Source of the DNA: Niebla homalea
Taxonomy: Eukaryota; Ascomycota; Lecanoromycetes; Lecanorales; Ramalinaceae
NCBI GenBank assembly: GCA_019925105.1
Contig: JAHGAU010000014.1
Coordinates: forward strand, 124,001-188,000
Direction: 5' to 3'
Length of the DNA: 64,000 nt
The translations under genes were made by a program, and so were the position numbers. Under the pieces are notes generated by a model, which was given only the letters and a program-made list of their open reading frames with translations, was not told the DNA's origin and made no database searches. Each line of letters begins with the position of its first letter. Position 1 is the first letter of the stretch. Positions 5,950 to 28,240 of this stretch are shown here, piece after piece.

Positions 5950-6150
5950 AATTTTATAAAATTTATTTTCTTTAAAGAAAACGTCCCTTATATAAATTAT
6001 TTTCTTTTAATTAAGTATTTATATATTATAAATATTAATATTATTATAATTAATAAAGAAATTAATATATATTTTTATTATTAATTTCTTTTTCTTAAGG
6101 ATTAATTTATTAAGTAAATAGGCTTTATAACCGTACTATTTAAGGTATTA
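5950..6150 (-). pseudogene. Copia integrase C-terminal relic
   Basis: On the minus strand this stretch translates, with RIP-type stops, to YGYKAYLLNK followed about 45 residues later by YIRDVFFKEN. Copia integrases commonly carry here a VYGCKAY...KLxxR...GYxxxxIYRIW...RDVxFxE pattern. The changes fit G-to-A and C-to-T transitions. It establishes the family and orientation of the surrounding element. It is not functional. Confidence 0.75.
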
Positions 6151-8507: not shown

Positions 8508-8727
8508 TATTAAATATAAGGACGTATAAGAATAAATAATATATATATATATTATATATTATTTATTTAGGAAGCATAATGCTATCTATATAAAATACCT
8601 AAATAATATAAGATATACGGCCAGGTAATAATATCTATACGCGTTATAATAGTGTCTTGGCACCGTCGCATGACGGCTTAGTGACACTCCATGCAATACC
8701 ACCACCATGCCTGCACCCAGGCTGACA
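8508..8727. repeat. Right LTR of the Copia element
   Basis: The 220-bp partner of the left LTR. It starts TATTAAATATAAGGACG (RIP-altered) and ends in an unaltered GGCTGACA. Here the inner half is mutated and the outer part from about 8615 on is native, the mirror image of the left LTR. Confidence 0.88.
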
Positions 8728-8839: not shown

Positions 8840-9736
8840 TCATGTCAGTGGGCATCGTTTTCTAGCAATACACACAACCTTTGGTGTGCAGATGACAACG
8901 CCAAGTTTGGACTCTTCGTACGTATCGCGCACTTTTTGTAGCGCGTGTTTGCCTTCCTCACCACCACCACCACCGTCATGAGTCATCCCTTGTGCCACCT
9001 CATCATCTTTGCCCAGGTGATTGTCAAAGAAGGCTCTGGCCAGCTCCGCCTTCTCATCGAACATTAACAGCTCCGCTCGCTCGAGCCCAGCATCTTGCAT
9101 GATCTGGGGAAGCTTGCAGACCCAAGAACCAATCTTGTTTAGCCTTTGTACATATTCATCTATAGCTGGTGTTACTTTCGCTGCGTCGCTGTTCTCAACT
9201 CGCTTAACAAAGGAGCTCGCTACGTCCAGCTCATCCCACTGAATCCACCCCCCGGGCTTCAATAGCTTGGCCAATTGCTGTATGACTAGCCGAGCATCGT
9301 CCTCGTGCCGGATGATCGCGAAGATCAATCTCACGTGGACGGCCTCGCTAGCATCCCACATGTACTCGGGTGGATCTTTGAAGATATCCCACTGCGATAG
9401 ATTCAAGTTCTGCGGTAGCCATGGGTTGGGCGGGCATTGGGCGAGACTAATGTCAGAAGCTTCAACGCGGGCATGTGGTAGCCTTTGAGCTACCTGGCGG
9501 GCCCAGATCGCGGTACCACAAGCTACGTCTGTGATGACCGGTGTTGAGGAGTGGACATAGGCTCTTCCGAGCGGTTCCGGATCTGGTGGCTTGAGACTTT
9601 CGAGAATGGTGGGATGAAGGTGAAAGCCCAGAGTCTCCTGCCAAAGATAGTGCTGCCCATCGAGGCGGGAAGCGGCTTTGAAATCTCGTCCCAAGGCGTA
9701 AGTGTCCGAGGACTGCCCGTCCGTTACTTCCTTCAT
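8840..9736 (-). CDS. SAM-dependent methyltransferase (GliN-like class I)
   Basis: Intronless 298-residue class I S-adenosylmethionine methyltransferase, probably cytosolic. The glycine-rich SAM-binding motif I reads ITDVACGTAIWA around residues 68-79. A post-I acidic residue follows in VEASDIS, and motif IV/post-motif sequence LLKPGGWIQWDELD lies near 155-170. The N-terminus (DTYALGRDF, HYLWQETLGF) resembles fungal methyltransferases annotated as gliotoxin N-methyltransferase-like, which act in secondary metabolism. The C-terminal part has a short Gly-rich tract and is less conserved. It starts about 110 bp from the Copia element and is the first gene of the accessory block. Methyl acceptor unknown; N- or O-methylation cannot be told apart from sequence. 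No lesions seen. Confidence 0.85.
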   Translation of the reverse strand: MKEVTDGQSSDTYALGRDFKAASRLDGQHYLWQETLGFHLHPTILESLKPPDPEPLGRAYVHSSTPVITDVACGTAIWARQVAQRLPHARVEASDISLAQCPPNPWLPQNLNLSQWDIFKDPPEYMWDASEAVHVRLIFAIIRHEDDARLVIQQLAKLLKPGGWIQWDELDVASSFVKRVENSDAAKVTPAIDEYVQRLNKIGSWVCKLPQIMQDAGLERAELLMFDEKAELARAFFDNHLGKDDEVAQGMTHDGGGGGEEGKHALQKVRDTYEESKLGVVICTPKVVCIARKRCPLT

Positions 9737-10085
9737 CTAGGGTGTCAAGACGTCGTGCGATTGTTGAATTCTTTTTGATTAGACTTATTGTATTTGGTAT
9801 GGGCAAGCTGTGTGAGGTGTCAGGATAGTCGAGGTCAACTTATCAAGATGACGCAGTGGTGAAGTCTTCGGGTTACATCGTCCATCAAGCTCCGCTTACA
9901 TGGTCTTTGCACGAGGATCGGACTAGTTGAGGTCTAACAACCCCGCTCAAAGCTCGGACATGGTCTGATGGTATACGACGAGGTTCATTACGAAGGGCAG
10001 TCAAGTACCAAGTATAGATCGAGACCTGGATCTACGAAGAAGCCATCTAAATTTTGGGGTCCATCTATGGATATGGCAGTACATC

Positions 10086-11504
10086 TTACACTCTGTTCCA
10101 ATCCACCTCTACTTCATTGCGCACATTGATACCATTACTTGGCATGTGTGCAGAGTTGGCTTGACTAGCCTTACTCACGGGCTCTGTTTTGCCTCCAGAA
10201 ACAATGGTAGACCTCGACAATTCATAACCCTCTTGTCCGTCTTGTGCCTGCTCAGATAACTGAACGAACCTATTCTTACTCTCTGTGTGACTTGAGATGT
10301 TCCCGAATCGTCGTGGACCAGAAGAAGCGCTACCTTCCTTCTTCTGTGATGAGCCGGAGGCATAACTGTTCGAGGGGTTGGGTGATCCAGTAAGAATCAT
10401 TGAGAGAATGGGTCGGAGTGATGGGAGGCAGGCTGCTCTTGTCAGTCACGAATCCGGGAAATGAACACAAGTCGCAAACACACCTGCAAAGATTGCCATG
10501 TTACTTTCTGCCTCTGTCCAGACGCCCACATAAGCGAAGTTCCAATCCAAGTCGGGAGACTTGAGGTCGGTATTCACGAGTGTGGCAAGCCGCAGAATGG
10601 AAATGATGATGACACTGTGGCCGAAGATCAACAGTGATCTTCCATGCGGCAATATTCAAACCTACACGCCCCCAGTCGCAAACATGGCTGCGATCGCAGT
10701 CTTCTGCGATCGACTCCGATGGAGTTTCCAAACGTACGGCAGGGGCAGTACAACGATGGCGGCATCGGTCATAATGTTCGGTACACAATTTCCCAGGAAG
10801 AAAGCGTAATCATCAATCTTGCAGTCTGGTTTCAGCGCTCTGTTCCAAAAGCCTTCAACTGGCGTGCACTGGAAAATGGTAAGGAATAGCTAGACACGTC
10901 GTCAGCAGCTACTTGCACGTCGCTCGGTACGGATGGGCCCCTTACGACTGCCAAGCCCCAGAGTGTGGTGACGCCAGCGAGAATATATACAGGTAGGCGA
11001 ATTGATCTTGTGAAAAGTCTGCAATAGAATGCCAAGATGGAATATTTGACCAAGCAGAGCACTGTGAGGTATAAGATCTCGCCAACAAAGAGATTCTTGA
11101 AGAAGTGGGTGACGAAGATGTTGAGATTGAGCACTTCATAGTGCAGTCCGTAGCCCTGACGTAGCCCTAATATCCCACATTATAAGTCGGATGTTTCTCG
11201 TTGGTCAGCAGGTCAGAGAACTCACAGACCAGGGTGCTAACAAGGAATCCTGTGGTGGTGGCCTGAGTTGAGCGTTCAGCGACCGGCGCAAAATGATAGT
11301 CCCCAGATAGTACCTTACCAAAGCCGCAACAATGAGCCAGTCATCGAGGCGAACCCCAGACTTCAAGAGCTTCCTGCACCACAGTCTCAGACCCACGGCT
11401 AAGAGAGCCAGAACGTAGGTTATGATCGAAGAAGCGTATAGCTGAGGTTGGCGAGATGCGTGGATATCGTAGGACGGCGGTGACACTGATGGTGAGGCAG
11501 ACAT
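10086..11504 (-). CDS. Fungal rhodopsin-fold (PTH11-like) integral membrane protein
   Basis: Seven-helix membrane protein of the fungal rhodopsin-domain family (PTH11/SAT4-like), 378 residues from six exons: complement(11319..11504), (11226..11250), (10946..11166), (10666..10889), (10484..10614), (10086..10435). All junctions keep one frame. Family signs are the first helix (SIITYVLALLAVGLRLWCR), RLDDWLI after it, GYGLHYEV, FVGEILYLTVLCLVKYSIL, then FQCTPVEGFW and WNFAYVGVWTEAESNMAIFAA with CLPSLRP. A Ser/Gln-rich cytoplasmic tail of about 100 residues ends in DWNRV. Members are thought to be plasma-membrane sensors and are often found beside metabolite clusters. Exon 2 is only 25 nt. The last acceptor was chosen as ..agag because it alone keeps the frame. 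No lesions. Confidence 0.85.
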
Positions 11505-12676
11505 GGTCGAGCAGTATGCTCAAGTGTCCTGACTCATCAAGGCAGGCGTGATCAAGTTGGTTCTTATTCCAAGATCCTGAGGGCATGTAATGTCCACTCT
11601 CGTCGGCATAGCATGTCCACACGTCCCAGAGCAGTATCAGCCAGCTCCGTATCAGCCAGCTTCATGCAAGCAAGCTGCGTTTGAGCGGCAAGCGATTGGA
11701 AACATAAGACAAAGCTGAAACGCGTGATGCTGGACATCTTCTAGTAGGAGGGAAATTAGGTGTCATGGAAAACACTGCTGATAGCTGGATGGTGTCACAG
11801 GCGCATCCTTCATTCTCGTTGCATGCATTATATGCAGCTTACCACCCGCGCCAGTGAGAAATGTTTTCTTTCTGGTGAGTTTTTGTGGCGTCCCACTGCA
11901 TACGGAGGATGGCACGAAAAATCCAAAATCTGCAGCTACCGTTATCAATCCTGGGCTGTAATCTGATTGTATCAAGTAAATTACAAATAGCTCCAGGCGC
12001 AATTCGCTAGCGGATTAAGCCTTTACATTCCAGCAGCTACAGGGACGTGGGGAGTACCCTCTGAGGAGCAAAAAAGAATACCGTAGATTTTTTAGATACA
12101 AAGCCGAGAAGATAACGGAAGATCCGTAACAAGAATGATAGTCATGCATAGGTATGCAGGATCATGTAGCCTGTTCCAGTTGTGTGATCCATCAAAGGTA
12201 GGCAACGGACAGGCTAATCCAAGAGCTGTTCTGGCTTCACCCGCGGTCCGATGCAGGATCAGTCAATGTCTCCACTTCGCCGCAAGGCGTCGTCGCTTCT
12301 ACGTAGGACTTCCGATCAGGGCCATGCCTGCCAAAATTTTGGGCAGCCACAGTCGCGATGGGTGTATCTTTCTTGCTGCTTTTGTCTTTGCTCCTCGAAT
12401 ATTGCGGCGTCTTGTTTCATTTCATTGGTGAGATATTGAATCTCACATGCTGACCTGCTTGACTTACAATGGCAGCAGCAATCCTGAAGCCTGCTACTGC
12501 ACTAGTCGCGGTGGCAGGAGGGTCACCCATTTACGGCTCAGCTCTATTCGCAAGCCCAAATATTTCGCGTATGAAAATGAAGTCTCACCGATCATTACTC
12601 CCCAGCATTCGGCGCCCTTGGTTCCCATCCTTCGATTGCTTGAGACCTTGCACAGCTTAATTCTGTCCCAACCACA
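11505..12676. other. Intergenic, no gene seen
   Basis: A 1.2-kb divergent spacer between the membrane protein (-) and the hydrolase (+). Short frames on both strands show no motif or coherent splice pattern. It presumably carries both promoters, but I could not identify a specific element. Confidence 0.5.
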
Positions 12677-13513
12677 ATGGGCTGGACATTTCCCTCGATC
12701 CTTATCATTCCTGGAGCTTGGCATCCCAGTGGCCTCTACAAAGGTCTAGCCGATGCACTTGAACAGACAGGTTTTCCCACCATCATCGCCGAATTACCCA
12801 GCCTGAACTCTTCCGACCCTGAAAATGCTACTTGTCTTGCAGATGCTGACTCAATTCGTGAGACGCTTTCTACTCTGATCGATGAGGGGGGAAAAGATGT
12901 GATCCTCCTCGCACATTCTTATGGAGGTATACCATGCGGAGCTGCTGCTCAAGGGTTCTCCAGCCAAAAAGAAGGAAAGTTGTCCGGGGTGGTTGGGCTT
13001 ATATATCTGGTTGGTTTCATTGTGCCTGAGGGGCAGAGTATTGTTGCATACCTAGGCGGTAAAAACGCGCCGTACGTGGTTGAAGACAACGTCAGTAGCA
13101 CTGTCTACCCCCAATTGCCCTTTTGATTGTGAGCTGATTACAGTTTTCTTTGAGAGTAGCCTACAAAACATCTTTCAACGGTCGCAGACCCCAGAAATGT
13201 ACTCTTCAATGACCTAGACCCTGAGACCGCCGCTCGAATGGAAGACGCCCTTCTCCCGCACGCCCTGGCAGCCTTCTCGAGCTCTATCACACGATCAGCG
13301 TGGGCTGAAACAGCTCTTGATGGAAGAAGAGCGTTCGTAAAGTGTGCCCAAGATCAAGCGCTTCCACCATTCCTACAAGACATGTTTGTGGAGCGCAGTG
13401 GCGTTCACTGGCTCGTCAGAGACCTGAATGCATCGCACAGTGCCTTTGTGAGCAAGTCGAAAGAGGTAGTCAAGCTGGTTTCCGGGATCTGGAAGATTTG
13501 GGCTCAGCAATGA
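12677..13513 (+). CDS. Alpha/beta hydrolase (intracellular paralogue)
   Basis: Alpha/beta-fold hydrolase of 255 residues, exons 12677..13090 and 13160..13513 joined in phase 0 across a 69-bp intron (gtcagt...gagtag, with a possible branch site GCTGATTA). It begins MGWTFPSILIIPGAWHP with no signal peptide, unlike its paralogue at 1.7 kb. The nucleophile elbow is HSYGG (Ser81). The candidate catalytic His is His231 in LNASHSAF. EGQS before the intron and FNDLDPETAARM after it match the paralogue's layout (EGQS..., FYHDVQADIARLAV). Proteins of this type in metabolite clusters act as esterases, thioesterases or cyclases, and the sequence does not decide between these. It is the last intact gene before the decayed core of the cluster. 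Confidence 0.87.
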
Positions 13514-13884
13514 GTTTTTGAAGATGGGCTCACTCTTGTCGGCCACTCATTATCAAGCGAGCTGTTTGAATCAATGGTTCGTTCTTGGTGGAGGAGTGAG
13601 CAGATATCTCCAGGCCAAGACAAGGCATCGATCAAGCTCTCATGAAATCGTTGAATTCTCCTTATTCACACAAGATAGCGGCGACGAGTCTAAGCCTCAT
13701 GCAACGTTCAGATCAAGGCCCAATTTTCAAACCCGCCTTATGAAACACTTCAAATCCTTGAGGCGATCTCTTGCTAATTGAAGTTCTGCGTCTCCTTTGC
13801 AAGCGACGAAACGGAGATAATCCCCCAGTGCAGGTGCATCCACGTTCCCAAATGATGCTGCTGCCTCGTCAGCTATGATTGACG

Positions 13885-15450
13885 TTATAAAGGTGATTGA
13901 AAGATATCATCAAGGTGCGACTGACCACTGACAGGTATCGAAACAACACCGATTTCCTGGATCAAAAGCCAGCAGATTCTCCAGTCGCGCGGCCGGTCTT
14001 CCAAGCCTGGTGGGAAGGGTAGTCTGGAGGCGGTCTGATTTTGTTGACATCGACCAGCACATAATGCGCTCCCGAGGGCAAGACATACTGGCAGAAAACC
14101 TTCAGTCGACTGTCGCTCCATTCGCAAAGCTGCCACAGAGAAGAGCCTTACCGGCAGCCCCAAAGCTTCAAATGTCTGACAGAGTAGATCGATCTTCCTT
14201 TTTATGTTCTGACGGTAGTCCTGCCAAAACCCGTTCCTTTCTGCTTGCTGTAATCCAAGGGCCGCTGCCGTTTGCGCGGGACCAGCGGTCGTGTAGCTGA
14301 GGACAATATGGGTATTCTGGACGTGCCTGATCAACGAGCCATCCCCGATTGCATAACCCACTCGCCAACCCGTGGCGTTGAAAGACTTGCGAATGGATCC
14401 GACAGTGATGGTGTGGCGCGCGATTTCAGCTCCCATCGTCGCCATCCGGTGAAAGGACTCGCCGTAGGAGGAGGTGCTCATAGACCACGTCAGAAAGGAT
14501 AATCAGACCGTGTTTGACACAGAGCTCGCCCAACGATCGCAACTCGTCTGCGGAGAAGACCTTGCCCAAAGGATTGTGACTAGTGACATTCCCACTTCAG
14601 CAACAAGAAACATCATGAGATGTCCGACCATCTGAGACTCACGGTGTATTGACGACCTGTTGGCGGATAGCATTGATCAGTAGGTTTCTTTTGGACTGGC
14701 AAGGTGCATCCCCGGCCACTTCCATGCAAGGGATTAGGGCGGGTGAGACCGGAACTGATCAGCATCCTTGTCTTGGGGGTTAACAGGCCTTCGATCTCCT
14801 CAACATCAAAAGTCCAATTGTCCGCGATTACGACCCTCGACTCAGCTCCTTTTGGTGGCTTCAAGCGAGCTCTCCGAAGCATGCCGCCTAGAAACCTGGT
14901 TTGAAGCTCGTATCTATCATTTCAATAAATGTGTGGTGTCAACCTTCGGTCTGGGAGGACCTTACAGATCAAAGGCAGGCTCCATCACGATGACCTCGTC
15001 GCCTTGCTCAATGAAGGCGGTGAAAATGCTCAGGATTGCCTCGGTTCCCCCCGAATGGACGGAGACTTCTTGAGCGGGATGGATTTCTCGGCCATAGAGG
15101 GTCGAATGGGTCTGCGCCAGTTGGTTCCTGAAGAAAGGAATTCCCTAATACCAACGCGGAGTTGATGTGCATCAGCGACTGCTCCCCTCATTCCGGGCAG
15201 GATTCGAAGGAAATGGGCGCGCTCCACAGCTGTTGTCCCATACTGGTTGCACTCTACCATCTCCAAAGCAAAGAATTCCGGGGGGTTTTCTTGACTTCAA
15301 GTCATATGCGTGTCAGCCCAGTAAGGTTGTTGCAGCCCCAACGCCAAGAGCGAATGACTTACGCTGATCCCTCCCCCAACTTTGCAATGGGCTGGCACTG
15401 TGAGGTGTTTGAGTTGACTGCCACCCACTCCCTAAGATGCAGTCGTGTCG
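13885..15450 (-). pseudogene. Class I aminotransferase (kynurenine aminotransferase-like), frameshifted
   Basis: Remnant of a PLP-dependent class I/II aminotransferase. Pieces in order on the minus strand: KLGEG and NPPEFF (N-terminal substrate region), QLAQTHSTLYGREIHP, VSVHSGGTEAIL, GDEVIVMEPAFDLYE, NTPHNPLGKVFS, LIILSDVVYEHL, TITVGSIRKSFNATGWRVG (Lys is the predicted PLP Schiff-base residue), LPSGAHYVLVDVNKI and ICWLLIQEIGVVSIP. Introns that restore frame were found at 'AFDL|YE' and at 'NTP|HNP'. Three places need a one- or two-base shift to join conserved sequence: near 15,145, near 14,480 and near 14,010. A further misfit of about 100 bp lies near 14,700. Too many lesions for a working enzyme unless the sequence has errors. 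The true start is not fixed. It sits beside the repeat precursor on the same strand. Confidence 0.8.
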
Positions 15451-16036
15451 TCGGTCAGCAGATGCCCAGAAGCTACAGTGGAACGCCTCATGATGTCTAG
15501 GAGAAAGGAAGCAGACCAGACACTATTTTTCACAGGCTCAAGTCTCAATGTTCCACCCTTTGCAATATTCAGAGTTGAAGTGTGGCCATCTGCTGTAGCC
15601 TCCATTGCTTGTGATGACCAGGAAGGGGTGACCAAGCTGGCCGTTGCTCGAAAGTACCTGACGAGGGCATTGATTCTACTCTCCATGGCCCTAAATTATT
15701 GTCCAAGCGTAAGCAAGGCCCAAGCTGTTCATAGATCCCTGATGATGGTTCCTTATCTAAGTTCGAGGCGGGGGCCCGTGCCGAGAACCTTGGCTACGCT
15801 GTGTGGATGAGATGGAACCCAACCCACGCCTTCTAGTGTCACACTCAATGCTCAGCTCGGGCAAAAAGACCTTCACTGACTGATTTGCCAGAAGTGGTAA
15901 CGAGGCTTGAGAAGTTACAATCACATATGCTGTGGTACAGGACATGAATTCTGTTGTAAGTCGTAACGCTATCTGCCTTAGCCTAAAGCTTCTTCGCTCA
16001 CACATATGATCTCCCTTTGAGCCCCAATTTGATTGT
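15451..16036. other. No gene seen between aminotransferase relic and precursor
   Basis: About 0.6 kb with overlapping short frames on both strands. I could not relate any to a family. It may hold the promoter of the minus-strand aminotransferase and the 3' end of the precursor transcript. Confidence 0.45.
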
Positions 16037-16401
16037 CTAATAGGCATCAGGGTAAGCAATAGCTTCAGCCTTGGGCACCGCCTCCCTCTTGTACGAATCC
16101 GGATAAGCTATTGTATCTGCCTCGGCATCTCGTTTGTAGGAATTGGGGTATGCAATGGCACCAGCTTCGGCTTCTGCCTTCGCATCTCTTTTGTAGGAGT
16201 CGGGGTAAGCGATGGCGTTTGCCTCCGCTGCTGCCTCTCATTTATAAGAGTCTGGGTATGCTATCGGCTCGTTCTTCGGAGCTTCATTTACTGTGAGCTC
16301 TTTTTCCTTGAGAGTTCATCCGTGCTGGGATACCCACGTATTGCCATTGAAATCGCCCCGCGACCGAGAGATGCGACGGCGAGGGCTCTAAAGTAGTGCA
16401 T
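16037..16401 (-). pseudogene. Kex2-type repeat precursor peptide (putative RiPP precursor), one internal TGA
   Basis: Small secreted precursor, 105 codons from exons complement(16338..16401) and complement(16037..16290). The 47-bp intron (gtgggt...ctcacag) restores frame. It starts MHYFRALAVASLGRGAISMA, a likely signal peptide. Five repeats follow: EPIAYPDSYK, then ANAIAYPDSYKR, GAIAYPNSYKR, DTIAYPDSYKR and, last before the stop, EAIAYPDAY. Repeats are parted by Lys-Arg (Kex2 site) and by Glu/Asp-Ala-rich spacers (Ste13-like trimming). This is the architecture of fungal RiPP precursors (ustiloxin, asperipin, phomopsin). The Tyr pair in each core would suit UstYa-type oxidative cyclisation; that is inference. 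Codon 39 (16238-16240) is TGA where the repeats predict CGA (Arg of Lys-Arg), a C-to-T change truncating after repeat 1. An alpha-pheromone precursor is less likely: no Trp or Cys in the cores. The name rests on architecture, not on a search. Confidence 0.75.
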
Positions 16402-17050
16402 GTTTGGAATGGTGATGGATCTCGCTGGTTATTGATGTGATGGTGTGACAGTCCCTTCTTGGTAACGAGTATTTTCAGCTGGGACCTGAATAACAGGGCA
16501 GCGCAGACGGCCTCTAACAGTAAAGGACGAAATAGTGTGCAACTTCATCCAAAGGTTCGTCTTACTGACCGCGTGGCGCGGCATGATGCGTCCATATGCA
16601 TACCACAGCTCGGACATCTCAAATGCGAGCAAAGTCATCGAGCGTTTGCGAGCGCCTCACTAGCTGGATGACCACACACCAATGTCAGATTGCATGAGGC
16701 TATGACGTCCCTCTACATTCGATGGGCTGATCGATCGGTGTAAAAGAGGGACATTGACTAATCGATTGTTACATCGGAGGTTCGGCCATTTCGTATAGTC
16801 AGTCAGTCACATATTGCAGGTGGAGTGCACTGTGCATGAGTGCTGCAACAGGGACCATGCTCGATAGGGACCGCAGAGACGAGCCTCGCAAATCGAGGAC
16901 ACGAGTTCATGCAAGGTCGAACTCTGCAGATTAACCAGGTCTGACCTTCGAACAGCGGCTGCGCGCCTTGTCGTCTAAATATCTTGCTTGTATTCTCGAT
17001 GGCTGGACACCAGACGACCTTCCATTGCTGGTGCTGGAGCAGACATCACC
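16402..17050. other. Divergent spacer between precursor and UstYa-like gene
   Basis: A 0.65-kb region between the minus-strand precursor and the plus-strand UstYa-like start, presumably a shared promoter. Short frames lack motifs. I looked for a second repeat precursor here and found none. Confidence 0.45.
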
Positions 17051-17400
17051 ATGGCGGAAGAGCAAGAACCGTTTCTCGAGAAGATCGTCAAGATGAACCA
17101 CGGAATAGAACAATATCCCAAATCTGGAATTGGTTGGCAAACCACCGGCGTATGGTGGTGGCTCACGCAGTGCTTCTGATAGCCTACACCTTAAGCTGTC
17201 TGGCCATTGTACGCTCTCAAAATTGTTTGACTGATTGTCACGTGTCATTCACCGTTCTTGCAAAAGAGCTTTGCTGTTGCCCATCTTGTGAAAGTTCTGC
17301 ACGACGTCTTCACAAATCCACTTCCTTAGACTTGAGATTTCCTACAAGTGACGGGCTCGACGGGTCACTCGCTTATTCTGACAAAGCGCTATAGTGACGG
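17051..17400 (+). pseudogene. UstYa-like (DUF3328) membrane protein N-terminus, frameshifted
   Basis: Probable remnant of a UstYa-family protein, the copper-dependent type of oxidase that cyclises dikaritin RiPP cores. The start MAEEQEPFLEK resembles the acidic EEPFL-type head of this family. After a frame change near 17,120-17,150 comes NHRRMVVAHAVLLIAYTLSCL, a basic flank and single membrane helix like that of UstYa proteins (R-W-HA-LL-YT). I could not find the diagnostic HxxHC pair downstream. The following 200 bp has stops in all frames, so the catalytic part is lost, too altered to read, or split by introns I did not resolve. Recognition therefore rests on the N-terminus and on the position next to the repeat precursor. 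An unrelated single-pass protein is possible. Confidence 0.42.
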
Positions 17401-17646
17401 ATGGATCAACTACTGAGTGAGCTGCAGGTGATCGGGTGAGCGTCTTTCTTGGCGTGCCCATGAAAATGATACCTCTATACCTCGCTCAATTGTGTGCTGT
17501 GAGTATGCAGGGTGGTATGCTTGAGATACCGCCGCTTTAAGGGAGCTAAGCTCGTTACGAGTCATGACGGTATTATTCTTGGGCCAATACGTAACATTGA
17601 TTCTCGACTCCAGCACGCCTCTTTTGGGTAGCACCACAGCCCAAGA
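17401..17646. other. Short spacer, no gene seen
   Basis: About 250 bp before the O-methyltransferase relic. A 75-codon minus-strand frame covers it but has no family features. Confidence 0.4.
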
Positions 17647-19166
17647 ATGGCCCGCAATCGAATCCTAGAGCTTGCATCTCTCATAGCTGCTAGCACTCCG
17701 ATCCTTGATGAAGAATTTCGTTCACAAGGCTATCAACGCCCTCGTTTGAATCTGGATATGCTGATTCCCCTTTGCCGAAAGGAAAGGCGAGTAGCCTGCG
17801 CCTGTCCTTACTCGAAGCTACGGATGAGCTGTACTCTCTCTTACTTGATCCAATTGGGATATTGACAACGCCTGCGGTACGTATGCCCATGATCACTGAC
17901 ACGAACGATCTGTCGATAGTGACAGAGACCGGCTGGACTGTCTAGCACAACTCACTGCTGAGTTTGCAAGCCATATCGCGGCTCAACGTAGCGGAGTGCT
18001 TTCACGAGAACAAGGATGAGGCAACTTTGCGAGAAATTGCTGCTTGTTCCGGAGTCGAAGAATCTATCGTCCGCCGGCTCTTGCGCCATGCCATGACCTG
18101 CCGGATATCTTGTGAGCCAAGGGAAGGGGTCGTTGCTCATACGGCAGCTTCGAGAGCGTTTGTGAGGGACCCGCGCTTGAGACAGTGGGTCTGTATGGTC
18201 ACCGAGGAGATGTGGCCAGCAGCAAGCAAAGTACCGTCTTGACTAAAAAGCCCTTGATCGTGGCGGTCAAATCAGTGCTGAAATATTAGTCCAGACTGTG
18301 GATGCATTACTCAGATGGCCCGCTTCGGAGGAGCCACATCATTCAGTCATTCCTTAACGTTTTTGACGAGCCCTGCACCGAGGCTGACAATGCTGTAGGT
18401 ATAACATGGCATTTGGTATCGAAGGATCTCTTTTTGACCACCTTAGGAAGGACCCTCTGAGACAAATGCACTACGCAGATGCCATGTCCTGGTTTGCAGA
18501 ACAGCCTGACCTGGATCCTTCTCATATAGTTGATGCGTACGAATGGAGTAAAAGCTTGGCCGTGCAACGGTGGTTGATGTTGGAGGCTCCCGTGGATCCA
18601 TTTGTGTTGCAATTGCTCGGAATCTTCCCCTTGTTCACTGCGTAGTCCAAGATAAGCCTAGTGTTATAGAGGCTGGACGCAAGAAATTATCGTCCTCGAT
18701 GGAGGGTAGAGTCCGTTTTGCGGCACATGATTTCTTCGAAGATCAGCCTGTCATAGGTGCGTCGGTGTACATCTTGCGATGGATACTGCACGATTAGCCA
18801 GATTCATATGCTGTCAAAATTCTCCGCGCTTTAATGCCTGCCTGCTATCATACACGGAGGTTCCATCTTGACTTGTGAGCATGTTTCTATCCTCTGGGGG
18901 GATACTGTCCTGCTATCAAGAGCGCGGGGCGCGTTGAGTAATTTGCTCCACGTTCGGGAAGCGACAGCTGAATGATTTCGAAAAGCACCATGGACTTGGC
19001 AATGCTGGAGTTCCACAACAGCAAGGAACGTAATATTGAGGATTAGAAGGCTTTGCTAAGAAGGGCAGACGTTGAATTCAAGTTGTCAAGCGTCATTCAG
19101 CCACCAGATTCCAGACTCGCCGTTATTGAGGTCATATGGAGCGACAAATCTCAGGATGAGAAATAA
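17647..19166 (+). pseudogene. O-methyltransferase (plant/fungal COMT type), broken
   Basis: Remnant of a SAM-dependent O-methyltransferase of the type common in fungal metabolite clusters. It starts MARNRILELASLIAAST. Then come TDELYSLLLDPIGILTTPA, an intron (17877-17945, gtacgt...tctag), HNSLLSLQAI, REIAACSGVEESIVRRLLRH, VVAHTAASRAFVRDPRL, EEMWPAASK, a second intron (gtaccg...gtccag), TVDALLRWPASEEP, GSLFDHLRKDPLRQ, MSWFAEQPDLDPSH, the SAM motif VVDVGGSRGSICVAIA, and YILRWILHD. Lesions: a frame change near 17,760; several stops at about 18,350-18,400; a frame change near 18,555 just before the SAM motif; and TAG at 18795-18797 where family members have Trp (ILHDWPD). It ends about VIEVIWSDKSQDEK. 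The SAM motif itself is well kept, so loss looks recent. Confidence 0.82.
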
Positions 19167-19473
19167 TAATCCCCGATGGACGTAGACCCAAGCTGGGCAG
19201 AGCCAAGTGCGTAGTGGTTTTGGCTCAAGATTGGAACTAAGCCTGTGATGCGAAAACGAATCGGAAGATTACCCAAGCAATGGCACTCAGCCATCTCGTA
19301 TGAGAGCATGTTAGCCTCGTAGTTCCAAGTATTAGAGCCTAGGATGGATGATCAATGTGAATCGGGGGCCATGCTTTCAGCTAGCGTCCTGTAGGCTTTT
19401 CACTCCGCACAAATGCACTTCGGAGCCTAAGAATCGTCCACTCCTCTGCGTGAAACATTCTTCAGAATACCTG

Positions 19474-21039
19474 ATGAGATTGTCAACCATGAACGTCCTC
19501 CTTTCTCTTCTTACTGCTATGGCTCTGCTCTCTGTGGCTTTCATTGTTCCTTTGATTCCTTCGAAAATTGCGCGCTGGAAGACTTCAACATCCTCTGGAT
19601 GTCTTCCACCCGCCTTGATTGGAAGCAAGGATCCCTTATTTGGATTCGGTCTCCTTGTGCCTTTACTCCAGTCTCTAGTAAGGAACACCCGTAATCAGTC
19701 GATACGTCAACTTTTCCAAACCTATGGAAACACCTTTCAAGCCAAGTCCTGGTCCGGCAGCAAGTACTTTACCATTGAGCCGAGGAACCTTCAAGCAATC
19801 TTTGCTACAGATTTTTCGAGCTGGGGCGTTGAGCCCATGAGGCTGTTTGCTTTCGAGCCATTTGTTGGCAAAGGCATCATGTGTGTCGATGGAGCACACT
19901 GGGAGCTTTCAAGAGCCTTGATTAAGCCTACCTTCGCGAGGGTACAGATTGCGGACCTGCATCTCGCGGCGTACTCAAAGCACGTTGACAGATTGTTAGA
20001 TCTGTTACCTACAGATGCAGCGCCATTGGACTTACAACCACTATTCGCGAGCCTTGCTTTGGATGCCTCCACCGAATTCCTTTTTGGAGAATCCGTGGGA
20101 TCGCTCTCTCCTGAAACACAATCGCAGGGAGCATGTGACTTCCTCGAGGCCTATAATTATGGGCAAATGGTAGTTGGGAGAAGGTTGCAGCTTCCACCAT
20201 GGAATTTCCTTACTATTGATGATAGGTTTCAAAATGCATGCTTGGTGGCGCACCGGTTTGTTGATGGGTATATTGCCAGGAGTCGAGCAATGGTTCGAGT
20301 CGGTGATACCAACCATGAAGTGGGTGGAGATAAGCCTAGAAGATACGTCTTAGCCCAGGAAATGATCAAGGACTCCGAGGATGAATCCATGGTTCGCAAT
20401 CAGCTCCTGAACGTTTTCCTGCCCGCACACGAGGCTGCTGGCGTTGCTTTGACGAACATCTTCTTCAACTTGGCTCGTCACCCGAAGACTTATTCAAGGC
20501 TTCGAAGAGCAATCTGCGATGCCGAGCGTCTTACTTTAGGTGGAAACATCTGGACTTTCGAAGGACTCAAAGGCATCAAGTACCTCCAGTACGTGATCAG
20601 TGAGACCTTTCGCCTCAATCCTGCTATAGGTACGAATGCTCGGAAGGCTCTTCGTGATACCATCTTGCCTACAGGAGGAGGGCCGCCATACGGCTTCGGT
20701 TCATCCCCAATTCACATCTGTAAAGGAGACACTGTAAGCACAAGTTTTTATGCTCTCCACCGACGTCAAGATATTTATGGCGAGGATGCCAACCACTTTA
20801 GACCCGAACGCTGGGAGAGTCTTCGCCCAAGTCCCTGGACATATCAGACGTTCGGAGGTGGACCACGTCATTGTCCCGGTCAGCAGCTTGCCCTAACGGA
20901 GGTAGCCTTTACAACAGCGAAAATCGTGAAGAATTTCAAGTCAATCGAGAATCGAGACCCAGTAATGGAATTCGTTGAGGACTTCAAGATTACGACTCAG
21001 AGTAGAAACGGTGCGAAAGTCAGCCTCGTTGTGGCTTGA
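19474..21039 (+). CDS. Cytochrome P450 (CYP52-like), atypical I-helix
   Basis: Intronless P450 monooxygenase of 521 residues from the Met at 19474, which begins the membrane anchor (MNVLLSLLTAMALLSVAFIV). An upstream in-frame Met at 19348 would add 42 residues before the anchor, which is unusual. Haem motif FGGGPRHCPG, with Cys467 as thiolate ligand. ExxR is ETFR at 377-380. FRPERW is the PERF region. Overall pattern (FAFEPFVGKGIMCVDGAHWELSRALIKPTFAR) is that of the CYP52/CYP63-like clan, whose best-known members hydroxylate alkanes and fatty acids. The I-helix reads FLPAHEAAGVAL (about 316-327), where (A/G)Gx(D/E)T(T/S) is expected: the acid is present as Glu, but the oxygen-activating Thr is replaced by Ala. 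The enzyme may work by a modified mechanism or be losing activity. No stop or frameshift. Confidence 0.9.
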   Translation: MRLSTMNVLLSLLTAMALLSVAFIVPLIPSKIARWKTSTSSGCLPPALIGSKDPLFGFGLLVPLLQSLVRNTRNQSIRQLFQTYGNTFQAKSWSGSKYFTIEPRNLQAIFATDFSSWGVEPMRLFAFEPFVGKGIMCVDGAHWELSRALIKPTFARVQIADLHLAAYSKHVDRLLDLLPTDAAPLDLQPLFASLALDASTEFLFGESVGSLSPETQSQGACDFLEAYNYGQMVVGRRLQLPPWNFLTIDDRFQNACLVAHRFVDGYIARSRAMVRVGDTNHEVGGDKPRRYVLAQEMIKDSEDESMVRNQLLNVFLPAHEAAGVALTNIFFNLARHPKTYSRLRRAICDAERLTLGGNIWTFEGLKGIKYLQYVISETFRLNPAIGTNARKALRDTILPTGGGPPYGFGSSPIHICKGDTVSTSFYALHRRQDIYGEDANHFRPERWESLRPSPWTYQTFGGGPRHCPGQQLALTEVAFTTAKIVKNFKSIENRDPVMEFVEDFKITTQSRNGAKVSLVVA

Positions 21040-22663
21040 CACAAGAACGACGAAATCATCTGTCTTTTGGCTATGCAGGCGGAGCGAGTGGGCGAGCAGG
21101 ATGGATGAATTTCCTCACTGCATGAGGGACAACTGCGAAGGTTTGATCATTGTACATCAGCGCTGATACTGTCTTTCGCTCTTCTCCAACAAATTAAGAT
21201 CCACTTTCGTAGTTATTTCACCCAGACCCTTATACAACCCACACTGCCTGCCACTATATAACAACGAGAACACACCATCTGCTCACGCCATTGCCTTCCT
21301 CCCCACCCTCCTCTCACCCCTCATTGTCCAGGCTTCCTCCCCACTACCACCACCTTCGACACGCACCTCACCCATTCCCTCTCCCGCAAAGTATTGCCAA
21401 AAGTCTCGAACTTAATTATACACTACCAGTTTATAAGCGATGTTTGAAAATAGTGTTAATACTCAAAAACAACTCATAGTCAATGATTCTAAGAAAATCT
21501 ATATTCTTCAAATGTCACGATATGGATCATAAAAGGCTTCAGGTATCAAAACGACAGTGGGCGATGCTATAGTGCGAAATGGTACATCAGAAATACCATC
21601 TGTGAGAGATCCTGCTTGGGCTCCGCCGGAATTTACTTCGCCATCTTCTTCTCTTGCCACGCCTAAATCGTAGCCGAGTATTGTATTGACGCAATTTTTG
21701 CTACATGATTGACGAATTGGATCAAGCAAGAAGGTGCTGCGACTCCTTCTACCAAAAGCAACAAGGCCCACGCGAAGTCTTTGGTAGATTTTGCACTTGA
21801 AGAAACCCAGCCACTATTTCCGAGACACTAGACTATACATATGCAGACACGGGCTTGACTGTGAACGAATGAATAACACATGGGGGAGCGGCAATATGCC
21901 GTGCTTCGCCATTTGCGTTCTGACAAAGCGAACGTGGACTCAACAGCTTCCAATCTTGGGAACAGGAAACGTATTGTAGTGGACATCTACGGTTGCAGCG
22001 TGCCAGTCAGTATCCACTGCATACCTCGTCATATTCCCAGGATGATGGATCCTACGCCCTGACTATTCGCACACGCGTATAATTAGTCCAGTGGAACATC
22101 TTGGTCTCAACTGAGGGATTCGCCTTCCAGGACGGGATAGTGTATCATATTTGGCCGGTGCGGTCCAGAAGCGAGGGGATGAGGGGACGGGAGGAGAAAA
22201 GGCCGCAGGGAAGGTGCGTCATCAGATCTGAATTTCAAGATCGAAACGACGAGGATGGAGCCTCATTCGTGGAAGAGCGATGATACGTTACGAACGGATG
22301 AACGTGTTGAGCGGCAGGGGGAGGAGCTTCAGGAGGAAGACGCTCCCATGCGAAGGGAGGGCTCAATTGAGGGAGATAGGAGCCGGAGGCTCCAGGAATT
22401 GAGAGAAGGAGTCTTGGAAGATGAGGGGAAATACGATGCGGAGACTGCGACCAGCTTGGGTAGTGAAGATTAGATGATGTTAATGAAGCGTACTTGTCGA
22501 GGTGATGAATTTGCTGTGGGGAGACATGAGAGGTTGCTGCTCGTGAGACACAGTGATTGCAACAACGTAGTTCAGGCAGCGCGCTATTCGTGTGCCTCGC
22601 TGAGCATCAACAAAGGCTCCGAAGACTGCGACAAGCAACATGATTGGAAAGCTAGAAGCGACT
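21040..22663. other. Intergenic, no intact gene; possible hydrolase scrap
   Basis: 1.6 kb between the P450 and the cupin gene, which converge. A minus-strand frame at 21508-21771 ends SPTVVLIPEAFYDPYRDI. That resembles the first strand and oxyanion loop of the alpha/beta hydrolases in this window (VxxPGAxxxP), but nothing of the rest follows, so it is at most a scrap. Pyrimidine-rich sequence lies at 21,290-21,400. Plus-strand frames at 22,255-22,473 are Glu/Arg-rich low complexity. Confidence 0.4.
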
Positions 22664-23642
22664 TCATGCCATCTTTGCCTTACGATCGGCAAAACGCCGC
22701 TGCAGTGGGGATGTCTCCATCTTCCGACATGCCAGCTCCCAATCCGTAGTCCATTTTGGGTAAAACGGTTGGTAGCCCAGCAGTCCGCCTATCCATCTGC
22801 CAACCACAATGCCTCCCGCCCTGGACAGATATTTTCCGAGGGGTATCCAGTTTGGTAGGGCCAGGTACGATGCGCCAGCGTCGAACATCTGAGGATAATC
22901 ACATGCGTATTAGCCTATGGAAGGAGGACACGAGAGATTCTCAGATACGAAGACTGTCCATCGGCGTCTTGGGACGATATCGCCACGGAATCGTCTCTTG
23001 TGTCTTAGAGTGAAGGGACCGTGCAGGGAAGAACAAGTAAAGAAAATGAACGCAAAAACTCACACACATGACCTGAATCAAATCCATTTTACCTCCGCGC
23101 ACATTAATGTCATCTTGATACCCATACCAGTTCTGGAAGAACACAGTATCGAGCTTCAAGGTCTCCCCAGCCTCTTCGGCCGAGAGCAAGAACCTGCATC
23201 TCTTCCCCTGCACCTTCCCCTTGTTTCCATCATCTAAGACGGGATATATACCATGGTACGTCCACGGCTTCACAACCACCTCACCATCTTCCGGTCTGAT
23301 GATCCTCTCCCCTGCACCTTCGACATCAAGCCCAAGCCAGCCTTCAAGGACTTGGATGTATTCTTCCTGATAGGGGTGGAAGTGGCGGGGCGGTCGCTGA
23401 GCAGATAAGGCAATGAGGTGGGGGTGAGCGAGGTCAACGTTGACTTCGAAAGCGAAGGCAAGGGTACGGTTGGATTGGATTCTGGGTATTAGGGGGGAAG
23501 AAGTTGGGAGGGGCGTGGTGGTCAGGGCGCCGTCGAAGCTGTTGCTGGGTAAGCGGGTTATGTTCTTCTTGAAAAAGACGGGGAGTGTGGTAGGGAGGGA
23601 CGGCTTGAGCAGGGAGAAGAAGGAGGGCCGAAGCATACTCAC
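22664..23642 (-). CDS. Cupin-domain protein with C-terminal membrane-type segment
   Basis: Cupin (RmlC-like) protein of 267 residues, exons complement(23064..23642) and complement(22664..22888). The 175-bp intron (gtgagt...cctcag) joins QVMC to MFDAG in phase 0. The cupin metal-site motif is recognisable as RHFHPYQEEYIQVLEG (residues 86-101, two His and a Glu). The second part of the barrel is around RPEDGEVVVKPWTYHG. The exon 2 sequence (FDAGASYLALP, VVGRWIGGLLGYQPFYPKWTTDW) is characteristic of a group of fungal cupin proteins of unknown reaction seen near metabolite genes. No catalytic assignment is justified; cupins in such clusters can be isomerases, cyclases or dioxygenases. No lesions. 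It is tail-to-tail with the P450. Confidence 0.82.
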
Positions 23643-24212
23643 GAGACGATAGGGGGATCCATGGCTGGATGATTGGAAGGCGCGGGTGTATTAGCTGCTG
23701 ATTTTAAGAGGATATATCATGAGTACCTGTTTCTCTGAAGACTCGGTTGTTCTTAACTGCCGGGGCTGCAGAGCGTGCGAAGAGGGTGGGTTGTGGTAGC
23801 ACAATTCTTCAAATGTGGATACGGCGTCTTGCCTGAAGCGTTCAATTGCATGAGCAGTACATTGAAATATACTTGGAAGCATGTCACCCCCCCCAAAAAC
23901 CCACCTGCCTTTATTTGAGTACATTTTATACAGTGCTCGCGGACGGTGAAGGTATGACAAATGTTGCATATACCTACGGTGAACACTTCATAGATATGAC
24001 GCGATCATCGCTCAGCACATGCGAAATATCGTGACCAAGACAATCACTCGAAGTGGTTGGCAATGGTCAGAGATGGCTGCAAAAGCTCGCATTTGCTGTA
24101 TGTAAGTCGCTGACATACTTGAGCTATGTATGCGCTGGCTGGAACCAAGCCCCACATGTGCATGGCACATGTACCAGACCAATTACTAGATGATGACTGG
24201 AGAGCTTTGCTC
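23643..24212. other. Intergenic, no gene seen
   Basis: About 0.57 kb between two minus-strand genes, holding the 3' end of the SDR transcript and the cupin promoter. Short frames on both strands have no motif. A run of ten C lies at about 23,887-23,896. Confidence 0.5.
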
Positions 24213-25313
24213 CTATTTTGGCGCTAAAGTCTTCAGTGCAGTGTCCTTCTCTGTTACGCCTGCCCATTCCGCACTTTTCATCCATACCTTCCGCTGCATC
24301 TCCTCATTCTGGCTATCTGGCGAGCTGCTATCCTTCTTCAGCATGGTGAAATAGCCGCGTTCTCCAGGGTATGCCTTGTTGGTAGCAAGTTTAACGACAT
24401 CTGCGCCCGCCTCAGCCGACGTGCGCATGGTTGGATCCATAAAACGAAGGAGGAAGCGAAAAGGTCGGATGATGAATATGGACATGTAGTAGAGCATGTT
24501 TGGGGTGTTGGTCCTCAAAGCGCGCGAATCTGATAGGTTTCCGGGGTTGATGGCGACGGCCGTGATTTTGCTCAGATTTTGATCCTACGGTTTAAATTGA
24601 TTTGATTAGCGGGCCGCTGTAGTATTCAAACCAGTAAATGACTGGAAGTTGGGGGAGCAGGCAACTCATACCTTCTCAAGGCAGCGATTCAGCGCGTACA
24701 TCCACATGACAGTCGCCAGCTTTGAATTTGCATATCTCTGGAAGCCGCGCCCGAGATATTCGGAGGCTGGTTCCTTCAAAGCATCGGGCTTGACGAGCAA
24801 GTCTAGATTCTGCGGCAAGCCGGGAGGATACTTCTCCAAACCGTTTTTGCCAGGCCAGTGGGCATCAGTAGAGAAGAGCACGATCCGGCCTCCCTGAGAT
24901 TGGAAGTTGCCGAGTAGTTGGAGCACTAAAACCACATGAGCCAAGTGCGACACCTGAAAGCTCTGCTCATAGCCGTCGACGCTCCATTGGGCCTCGCTAT
25001 TCAAGTTCCAGTGGTAGGCATTGCAGACGATAGCACCGAGAGGAGCAATCTTCGCGGCTGAAATGTCGGCAGCGATGGAGCGGGCGAATTCGCCCACCTT
25101 GGATAAGTTGGCTAGGTCAAGTTGACGTATGTAGGCTCTTGCACGAGGAAACTTGGAAAGAACCTTGCGGAGCGCAGAGGTATGAATGTCATTGTCTGAA
25201 AGGTTGCGAACGGTCAAGACCAAAGTGTGATCGGGGTATGTGGTCAGCAAGTGCTCGATGGCAGGGATGGCCAGAGAGCTATTGGCACCAGTGAAGATGA
25301 TTGTACCGGCCAT
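24213..25313 (-). CDS. Short-chain dehydrogenase/reductase
   Basis: NAD(P)-dependent SDR of 337 residues, exons complement(24672..25313) and complement(24213..24584), joined in phase 0 over an 87-bp intron (gtatga...ccgtag). The Rossmann nucleotide site is TGANSSLA at residues 8-15, a variant of TGxxxGxG lacking the later glycines. The catalytic set is Ser148 in LFSTD, Tyr194 and Lys198 in YANSK, and INPGNL follows at the start of exon 2. The size and C-terminus (substrate-binding half with FRFLLRFMDPT) resemble the retinol dehydrogenase/protochlorophyllide reductase-like group, frequent as tailoring reductases. Substrate unknown. The modified glycine motif could lower cofactor affinity or reflect a subgroup habit. 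No lesions. Confidence 0.86.
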
Positions 25314-26437
25314 GGCTGGATAATATTAATCAATGTGAGTCGAGGAGAGAAGTGGGAGGAAACAGTCAGACAACTGTAATAAAGAATTTGATTTAGTGTC
25401 AGAGATTTGTCATGCACGAGCTCTCAACACTCAAGTGTACTAATAATATGCGGGTGTCATGACAACAGTGTTATGGACGGGATGATGCGACTGATAGTTG
25501 TAGTCGAAGAGAAGCAATGTAACACAGGGATGGGAAGGATGGAGTTGATGTATTAAACGATAATCTTTCAGAAAATGCTAACATGCCTCGATTTTGAAAA
25601 TTGAATGAGGTTGAATGAAATACATGGCCTTTTGATACAATCATAGGAATAAAAGCTTATTTGGGAAATTGCCTAAATACTCTTCGACTCCGTCGCGGGC
25701 ACCACGGGACGGATGGAATTAGGCCTGGGCCTTCCTCAATTCTGCAGCAAAGAAATGCCTCACTGCGGGGTTCTTATCGAGCGGGGGTATTTCGATCCTG
25801 GACAAATAGTGCATGAGCTGAACAGTCAGCAATCATTGGTGAGCAAGTAGGCTGCCTGCCGGTTGTTGTTGCTGCACCCTATCACACCTACAACAGGGTT
25901 TGTTTCAAATGGCGCACATATGCAGGTAAGAAGACCTGTACCGGCTCAGTAGGCTGAGAGCTCTGCCGTTGCGAGGCAGCCTTGGGCGTCGAGCTCTCCA
26001 ATTTGAGCGCATATTCCTACCTTATGAGATCTCCTAATGCTCTGACTCAGCCTTTTGTATTAAGAGTCTCGAGCAGTCCTTGAGTGTATGCATGATTCGA
26101 CGCCATGCCTGCTGTCATGTGGCAGAGCCATCATTTTGATCTGTTAATGCAGTTAATGAGTGGGCGGTGTTACCCTGTTCTGTTCAACTCTCCGTCAGCG
26201 CAGGTTTTTCCCGCAACCATCACTTGTTGGTGGGCAGCACAAATACCTTTACTACGTAATACTCGTGGATGATCACATCTTGGAGATGTGCTGTCATGCT
26301 CCGCCGCGCCCATGCGCCGATTCGAGATGCAAGCATGGCTTGCGATTGGGGTGCGGCGTAGAGCCAGAGAATTGTATATAAATGCTGCGATTTACAGGTA
26401 ACATGAGCAAGCTGGCATCGTCGGGTCTCCAGCAAGT
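25314..26437. other. Intergenic promoter region, no gene seen
   Basis: 1.1 kb between the SDR (-) and the FAD oxidase (+), transcribed away from each other. No frame with a motif. It probably holds both promoters; a TATA-like TATATAAATG lies at 26,375-26,384, about 55 bp before the FAD oxidase start. Confidence 0.5.
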
Positions 26438-28240
26438 ATGGGGCATCTAATGAGACATCCTCTTGTATTCATGTTCTTCTGGACCTCTAGTATCATTGCC
26501 ACTTTCAACAACACCTACAATTCCACTACGACTGCGTGCCTCCAGCTCCAAGGCAGCTTGAAGAATGTCACAATTGTGCCTTCAGAGAGCCAGTATCAGT
26601 TGTTGAGCCAGGAGAACTGGTAACTTTATCCACATGTCCGATTCTCCTCAAAGTCACCAGCTTATATTGGCAGGTCTGAAACCTGCTGGAAAACGCCTAC
26701 CTGCATCGTCCAGCCCGTTGATAACTCGGAGATTCAGAGCACGGTCCACATCCTTACCAAATTCAACGTCAAATTTGCCATTCGTTCTGGAGGCCATTCT
26801 CCCTCGCCCTTTGCAGCAAATATCGACAGTGGCGTATTGCTCGACCTGTCAAAGTTCAATCAAGCCATTTATGACGCGCCGAATAATGTGGTCAAGGTCG
26901 GCACAGGAATGAGATGGGGGGATGTGTATCAAGTTCTAGATCACCACAACGTCACTGCTGTCGGTGGGAGAGTATTGGATGTCGGTATTGGAGGCCTTGT
27001 ACTTGGGAGTAAGTATCCTTGAGCTAATCAAACGTTGAAGCTCAAAGACTGAAGTCTCTAGGCGGGCTATCATACCTCTCAGATCTCTATGGACTGGCAT
27101 GCGACAACGTTGTCGACTTTGAAGTAGGACCCGACCCTTTGGTGAGGTGGGCTTCTTGTAACATTCTCCAGATCATCCTCGCAGACGCATCGATTGTGAA
27201 TGCCAACGCAGAGACGAACCAAGATCTTTTCCGAGCATTGAAAGGAGGAGCTAACAATTTCGGTATGTCACTCGCAACCCCCAAGCCCCAGTCCTCCGCC
27301 CTTGTCTCACATGTTCACATCCAGGTATCGTTACAAGCTTTACATTATCGACCTACCCTATATCTCAAGTCTGGGGCGGAGTCAAGACCTATTCCCTCAC
27401 CCAGCTCCCTACACTCTTCTCCAGCCTACATGAATATCAGTCAAATCCTAACAAGGATCCTTATGCCAACCTTATGTTCCAAGCATTCACCACCAACGCA
27501 AGTATAGGCGGCGTACTCAACATGGTCTACCTGAAACCTGAGGTCGCGCCTTCTGCATTTGCCCCCTTCTACTCCATTCCCACCACGGAAGACACCACTA
27601 AGCTACAAACCCTCACCCAGATGATGAGCGGACAGCGTTTGCCACCTCTAACACGGTAAAGTCACTCTTAACCATTCCACCACTTCCCCTCCTCCAGGAA
27701 ATCGACCAATGCGCTGACTGACGTTCCCTCTTCGACTAAAACAGTTGGGACTGGTTCGCCACCAGCTCCAAGCCCAGCGCCTCGCTCTACCAAAAGATCG
27801 CCTCAATCATCGTTTCGGCTCCCGAGCTCGCCGACATCGAGTCCGTGGAAGGGGGGGGCATGTCGCTCGGGGTTCAACCCATATCCTCCAGCGTCGTGCA
27901 TGCAGGAGCTGCTCGCGGGGGCAACTCGCTGGGGCTCGAAGCTGTCAATCAAACTTGGTTCGCGCTAGATGTGGGCTGGGACGATGCCAGCAAGGATGAC
28001 AAGGTGCATGGCGCCGTTCAAGCAATTAGAGATAGGATTGCACAGGCGGCAGTGGACGAGGGACAGCATGTGGACTATCTGTTCATGAATGATGCCAATT
28101 ACGATCAAGACGTCATCACCCATTACGGGGCTCAAAGTGTTGGGGCATTGAGAGAGGTGCAGCGGAAATATGATCCCAATTTCGTCTTCCAGAAATTGGT
28201 TTCAGGGGGGTGGAAATTGCCCGGGCCAAATGGAAGATAG
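26438..28240 (+). CDS. Secreted FAD-linked oxidase (berberine bridge enzyme-like)
   Basis: Flavoprotein oxidase of the PCMH/BBE-like family, 498 residues from six exons: 26438..26619, 26674..27008, 27062..27123, 27172..27262, 27325..27655, 27745..28240; all phases agree. A signal peptide (MGHLMRHPLVFMFFWTSSI) suggests passage through the secretory path. FAD is probably linked covalently to His102 in RSGGHSPSP. The second, Cys-type linkage of bicovalent members is not evident: the matching stretch reads VGGRVLDVGIGGLVLGSG. Other signs are DLYGLACDNVVDFE, FRALKGGANNFGIVTSF, and the C-terminal NDANYDQDVI and YDPNFVFQKLVSGGWKLP. Such enzymes oxidise alcohols, amines or C-C/C-N bonds in many fungal pathways. 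It closes the accessory block. No lesion found. Confidence 0.9.

Follow-up and report, generated by a model that had tools for sequence, protein, structure and literature searches.

A 64,000-nucleotide stretch of the Niebla homalea genome, contig C14:124001-188000 (JAHGAU010000014.1; hereafter the window, in an assembly of 50.6 Mb and 52 contigs), probably contains the broken copy of a gene cluster for a dikaritin-like ribosomally synthesized and post-translationally modified peptide (RiPP). Immediately to its left is a sister copy that has diverged from it and whose precursor gene is open; this precursor is on the same contig, beyond the left edge of the window and 26 kb from the window precursor. 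Judged from sequence, the predicted product of the cluster is, with good probability, a small dikaritin-type peptide with a tyrosine bridge. Its placement among dikaritin-like RiPP clusters appears well supported, and we read it as part of a family of lichen fungi that lacks the tyrosinase and S41 peptidase of ustiloxin and phomopsin clusters. An earlier note, made from the window alone, had proposed a dikaritin-like cluster that was dead here and intact in relatives. The open sister cluster with its two UstYa genes and a gene model from Trypethelium with a related precursor lend this good support, although the catalytic domain of UstYa is gone from the window copy. The contrary outcomes named in that note, namely loci lacking the precursor or UstYa, or the repeat protein unlinked from tailoring genes, were not observed. 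Coordinates below are window positions unless prefixed with a contig name.

The two precursor genes are as follows.

16037..16401, minus strand: window precursor, five cores (IAYPDSY three times, IAYPNSY, IAYPDAY), in-frame stop past core 1
C14 about 113.37-113.90 kb, plus strand: sister precursor, open, with a hydrophobic N-terminus, a predicted intron and eight cores

The five tyrosine-containing cores first seen in the window were recovered at 16040-16261 on the minus strand, in the order IAYPDSY, IAYPDSY, IAYPNSY, IAYPDSY, IAYPDAY. A Lys-Arg (KR) site comes directly after three of these cores, core 1 is followed by Lys and a stop, and the last core coincides with the end of the frame; the signal-like N-terminus sits in a different frame from the cores, for which a short intron may account. 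In the sister, PIAYPDAY followed by KR is repeated eight times with a 45-base period. The secretory N-terminus and KR-bounded repeats of Kex2-processed repeat proteins (KEPs) are found, the N-termini having been compared by hydropathy alone (1.42 in the window, the least hydrophobic of the three, 2.47 in the sister and 2.67 in Trypethelium). The signal-like leader and KR-separated cores of a dikaritin precursor are seen in the sister, and the window retains five cores with a stop after the first. Arrays of the core exceed chance expectation: an 18-base pattern for AYP[DN]xY gives 15 matches in the whole genome, against 4 for a reversed control pattern, and these comprise the eight sister cores (C14:113537-113869), the five window cores and two singles on C17 and C38. 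Pairwise comparison of the eight sister repeats, in which counts are not independent events, gives 85 synonymous and 0 non-synonymous differences over the seven core codons, and 70 and 33, respectively, over the five codons ahead of the cores. The corresponding pairwise counts in the window, read with the same caution, are 42 and 8 in the cores and 12 and 32 in the codons before them. This contrast suggests that selection has preserved the core peptide in particular.

The other genes of the sister cluster, modeled from open frames with splice sites placed by eye, are listed from left to right.

C14:104312-105643, minus strand: methyltransferase, homologue of the window methyltransferase
C14 about 106-107 kb, minus strand: rhodopsin-like protein
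C14:109.3-110.3 kb, plus strand: hydrolase
C14:110693-112732, plus strand: aromatic amino acid ammonia-lyase (PF00221, 8.5e-134)
C14:114.4-115.5 kb, plus strand: UstYa1, with HELHC and, across a splice site placed by eye, HVDHC
C14:115550-116275, minus strand: UstYa2, with HQLHC and HVSHC
C14:116761-118347, plus strand: P450
C14 about 119.0-120.2 kb, plus strand: O-methyltransferase
C14 about 121.5-122.7 kb, minus strand: second rhodopsin-like protein
1710..2731 of the window, minus strand: second alpha/beta hydrolase, right end of the cluster

UstYa1 and UstYa2 both exceed the Pfam cut-off for UstYa. The sister has what marks a dikaritin cluster, UstYa (DUF3328) proteins with two HxxHC motifs beside the precursor, and the window copy does not; UstYa2 has no match among solved structures at E up to 1. 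Phenylalanine ammonia-lyases rank best among the solved structures matched by the lyase, and aminomutases are also among the matches. The second rhodopsin-like protein and second hydrolase (C14:121500-126731) are perhaps the remnant of a third copy.

The other genes of the window copy, some open and some broken, are as follows.

8840..9736, minus strand: S-adenosylmethionine-dependent methyltransferase, open, 298 codons (Pfam 3e-06, just above cut-off)
10239..11519, minus strand: rhodopsin-like membrane protein (Fung_rhodopsin), in pieces
12677..13513, plus strand: alpha/beta hydrolase, split into two open pieces that share a frame (Pfam 8e-11, one piece)
13739..15430, minus strand: class I aminotransferase of a lichen cluster type, several exons (PF00155 2e-12, one piece; also identified by tblastn with lichen aminotransferases and by tree)
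17068..17220, plus strand: UstYa N-terminal remnant (weak match to sister UstYa1, E 0.003)
17949..19142, plus strand: O-methyltransferase, broken by frame changes and stops (Pfam 2.5e-15, one piece)
19336..21039, plus strand: P450 of a lichen family, open, 567 codons (Pfam 2e-44)

The P450, aminotransferase, O-methyltransferase, hydrolase and methyltransferase that had been recognized by eye are thus upheld by Pfam. The proposed UstYa-like N-terminus has the weak match to the sister protein in its favor, but the remnant has no Pfam match and no HxxHC motif occurs in the six frames of 16400-17700. A frame change interrupts the aminotransferase near 14454-14471. As the precursor, UstYa, aminotransferase and O-methyltransferase are all broken, the sequence as it stands would leave the window copy non-functional.

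When open pieces from the sister side were used as tblastn queries against window positions 8601-30000 (E up to 1e-3), six gene families were found to be common to both clusters in nearly the same order. Identities between sister and window are 34% for the methyltransferase, 36-50% for the rhodopsin-like protein, 35% for the hydrolase, 55-58% for the precursor, 33-55% for the O-methyltransferase and 50% for the P450 (52% in a second comparison), and the P450 value suggests that the two copies are old. The order differs in that the O-methyltransferase and P450 have exchanged places, and the two precursors lie on opposite strands. Nothing in the sister stretch matches the window aminotransferase, and the sister lyase is likewise unmatched in the window (PF00221 has 6 matches genome-wide): the ammonia-lyase in the sister takes the place of the window-type aminotransferase.

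Relatives of the P450 and of the aminotransferase are traceable across other lichen fungi. A total of 355 P450 relatives were found, of which 120 are listed and used in the comparisons, as are 120 listed matches of the aminotransferase. Sixteen genera are named among the P450 relatives listed: Protoblastenia, Wetmoreana, Caloplaca, Viridothelium, Seirophora, Xanthocarpia, Trypethelium, Bacidia, Flavoplaca, Dirinaria, Usnochroma, Agyrium, Pyrenodesmia, Loekoesia, Lecanora and Xylographa. We take all of these to be lichen fungi or their close kin, Agyrium presumably being non-lichenized, in keeping with a lichen-forming Lecanoromycete as the likely host. Viridothelium and Trypethelium belong to Trypetheliales (Dothideomycetes), and Bacidia to Lecanoromycetes. 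A single gene model of Trypethelium subeluteriae (P0047) runs from a seven-core precursor (IAYPDSY five times, VAYPDTY and VAYPNSY) through the same type of aminotransferase into the same type of P450, and is the only one of the 240 listed relatives with the core motif. A Caloplaca gene model (P0035) joins an aminotransferase, whose best solved-structure match is yeast BNA3, to a P450. Among the matches listed, inspection by eye also places an aminotransferase and a P450 on contigs of equal size in Viridothelium virens (308738) and Lecanora helva (4537881), and in Bacidia gigantensis, where the contigs are of equal size (458027) and the locus tags consecutive (KY384_000043 and 000044). Two more equal-sized pairs among the matches listed (13288; 11322, the latter under differing sources) are weaker because equal small sizes may be coincidence.

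In a P450 tree of all 120 listed matches, the window and sister sequences and three outgroups, the sister falls within a clade of 21 rows (support 100), and the window within a clade of 68 rows (support 98) that includes Trypethelium, Caloplaca, Viridothelium, Bacidia and Lecanora helva. The P450s on the 13288 and 11322 contigs (P0074, P0078) are outside both clades. In the aminotransferase tree (123 rows), 12 rows labeled by hand as cluster-type, including the window piece, form with nine others a clade of 21 rows (support 100), separate from most fungal kynurenine aminotransferases; the cluster-type label requires five changes on this tree, and the window piece sits on a long branch. The Trypetheliaceae (Dothideomycetes) P450s P0036 and P0047 appear beside P0048, nested among Lecanoromycete-type sequences. 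The cluster could have been transferred between lichen fungi, to Trypetheliaceae, as the P450 tree hints and the aminotransferase tree suggests less clearly. The P450 alignment retrieved 29 pattern matches and no relative from viral contigs. From bacterial and archaeal genomes 80 loci were kept, all distant P450s (23-30% identity), which were not used.

By analogy with known pathways, the precursor would enter the secretory pathway and Kex2 would cleave it at Lys-Arg, after which exopeptidases would shorten the fragments to roughly (P/A)IAYP[DN][SA]Y. UstYa-type oxidases would then link tyrosine side chains to neighboring residues, as described for asperipin-2a and ustiloxin in the available part of PMC6514808, and further modification of the ring would fall to the P450 and methyltransferases. 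For the enzyme that removes nitrogen, an ammonia-lyase in the sister and an aminotransferase in clusters of the window type, we propose a role at the N-terminus or in providing a cap. Several points weigh against this scheme. What the lyase or aminotransferase does in it is guesswork; the catalytic part of UstYa was not found in the window copy by a Pfam UstYa search or a scan for HxxHC; and the sister methyltransferase has no Pfam match. Tyrosinase (PF00264) has 11 matches in the genome, none of them on C14, and the one S41 peptidase match (PF03572) is on C16, not near the cluster. A search of 5.8 billion proteins with the window-frame precursor, X replacing each stop, gave 423 candidates and none at E up to 10; as the same query detects the sister and Trypethelium precursors in a local test, there appears to be no free-standing precursor of fitting length among the 423. 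Finally, the only Pfam match of the sister precursor is a sub-threshold, composition-type one (Extensin_1, 45 bits, cut-off 105).

This last point, together with the several broken genes of the window, might be taken to mean that the repeats arose by chance or through low complexity and that the genes around them came together by accident. Such an origin is exceedingly improbable, given conservation of the core at the codon level, pattern matches far in excess of the control and a gene order common to the sister, and the sister cluster and P0047 both contradict it. Alternatively, a KEP might release an unmodified signaling or pheromone-like peptide, the metabolic genes being incidental neighbors. 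KR-site repeats are indeed common to KEPs of many functions, according to the portion of PMC6339444 at hand, yet the precursor is surrounded by six gene families shared by two diverged clusters, a third locus (P0047) unites it with an aminotransferase and a P450, and the sister precursor is flanked by UstYa genes, all of which make this explanation quite unlikely.

A different division of labor, in which the P450 rather than UstYa closes the tyrosine bridge in aminotransferase-type clusters, and UstYa does so only in the lyase-type sister, is consistent with P0047, where the precursor leads straight to the aminotransferase and P450, and with the window, where the P450 is open while UstYa is a remnant. 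The same remnant indicates that the window copy once had UstYa, however, the sister holds a P450 of the same family in addition to two UstYa genes, and an open P450 amid decay may merely reflect recent decay; we therefore consider this arrangement unlikely. A broader proposal, which we likewise hold to be doubtful, is of a lichen-specific class of ribosomal peptides: the tyrosine bridge of their IAYP[DN][SA]Y cores would be closed by a P450 family dedicated to that task, the ammonia-lyase and aminotransferase would be interchangeable, giving a keto- or cinnamoyl-type N-terminal cap, and the cluster would have passed between Lecanoromycetes and Trypetheliales. The preferred reading remains a dikaritin-like cluster with UstYa-type bridging, broken in the window and diverged in the sister.

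To the right of the P450 and between the two clusters lie the following features.

22941-23690, minus strand: cupin, neighbor (Pfam 0.0015, under cut-off)
24213-25325, minus strand: short-chain dehydrogenase/reductase (SDR), neighbor (Pfam 8.5e-4, under cut-off)
26624-28240, plus strand: flavin adenine dinucleotide (FAD) oxidase, neighbor (FAD_binding_4 6e-18)
3001..8600, no strand: AT-rich block between sister and window clusters, with a bias like that of repeat-induced point mutation (RIP) (composition)

All three enzymes had been counted in the cluster by the earlier note, which extended it over 8840-28240. The FAD oxidase is supported by its domain, while the cupin and SDR stay below Pfam cut-offs. 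Sister pieces have no tblastn match in the window at 22-28 kb, and membership of the three is not claimed. Since this third (22941-28240) has no sister counterpart, the supported cluster is about 8840-21039. Positions 3001-8600 and 48001-64000, which separate and flank the clusters, are extremely AT-rich (13-29% GC per kb) and show a dinucleotide bias resembling that of RIP, and the bias is limited to such blocks. Wholesale RIP as the cause of decay is unsupported, because both clusters share the dinucleotide indices of the right flank.

Elsewhere in the genome there are 33 exon-level UstYa matches, so it may hold many UstYa-type pathways. Periodic KR repeats were sought around 30 UstYa matches, about 1.5 kb to either side. 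At L006 (G000:C8:333698-337084) an unrelated repeat frame with four FEADGMLAVGNDAESSYATKPKR-type units (minus strand, 25-318 of the locus) lies near UstYa at C8:334849-335584, and a transporter-like frame is found on the opposite side. At G000:C29:424075-428937 (L013, L065), a UstYa match with eight internal stops and a broken aminotransferase belonging to the family described above lie about 3 kb apart; the pair is perhaps the remains of another such cluster. Strong aromatic ammonia-lyase matches occur at four loci, on C17, C12, C14 and C2.

The absence of a described product with such a core, as first surmised, agrees with the literature searched (preprints and most subscription journals being outside its scope), in which IAYPDSY, IAYPDAY, AYPDSY, AYPDAY, YPDSYKR, YPDAYKR and AYPNSY were not found. 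A search for lichen RiPP precursors gave nothing closer, and the word lichen does not occur in the available text of Umemura 2020 (PMC7329392). With a repeated precursor so readily visible, a sequence and masses can be predicted for the product and searched in existing metabolomes. For IAYPDAY the calculated [M+H]+ is 812.3825 for the linear form, 810.3668 with one bridge and 808.3512 with two; inclusion of the preceding Pro gives 909.4352, 907.4196 and 905.4039, and every methyl group would add 14.0157. A P450 and aminotransferase family is tied to this precursor and can be followed across many lichens, and the adjacent open and decayed clusters, one with a lyase and the other with an aminotransferase, offer a natural comparison of tailoring change and decay of RiPP clusters in fungi.

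Among known systems, lichen RiPP clusters have been surveyed by Pasinato and Singh 2025 (PMC12048977), who report 987 clusters and two conserved clans; in the part of that text available, a repeated precursor is described for neither, whereas it is explicit here. The present clusters share DUF3328 (UstYa-type) genes with both clans, an O-methyltransferase with R1 and an aminotransferase, less conserved there, with R2. They differ from R1, which has a tyrosinase beside UstYa (C14 has no PF00264 match); in R2, GNAT acetyltransferases flank the UstYa gene. The asperipin-2a cluster of Aspergillus flavus (aprA, aprY, aprT, aprR; core FYYTGY) resembles them, as far as the cited part of PMC6514808 goes, in its multi-core precursor adjoining UstYa-type genes, tyrosine-containing core and lack of a tyrosinase. 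Unlike asperipin-2a, the core here is IAYP[DN][SA]Y, and a P450, two methyltransferases, a hydrolase, a rhodopsin-like protein and a lyase or aminotransferase are present; no isoflavone-reductase gene was recognized, no search having been aimed at one. With ustiloxin and phomopsin the clusters share a signal-like N-terminus and KR core repeats, and with ustiloxin also two UstYa-type genes, a methyltransferase, a P450 and a pyridoxal phosphate enzyme (same source and portion). In contrast to these, the core is different, tyrosinase and S41 peptidase are not near, and the pyridoxal phosphate enzyme is a kynurenine-aminotransferase-like class I protein, replaced in the sister by an ammonia-lyase. 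KEPs at large, a precursor class of many functions, have the same secreted-type precursor, repeats and KR sites (PMC6339444, in part); the precursor described here is set apart from them by its position within a tailoring cluster.

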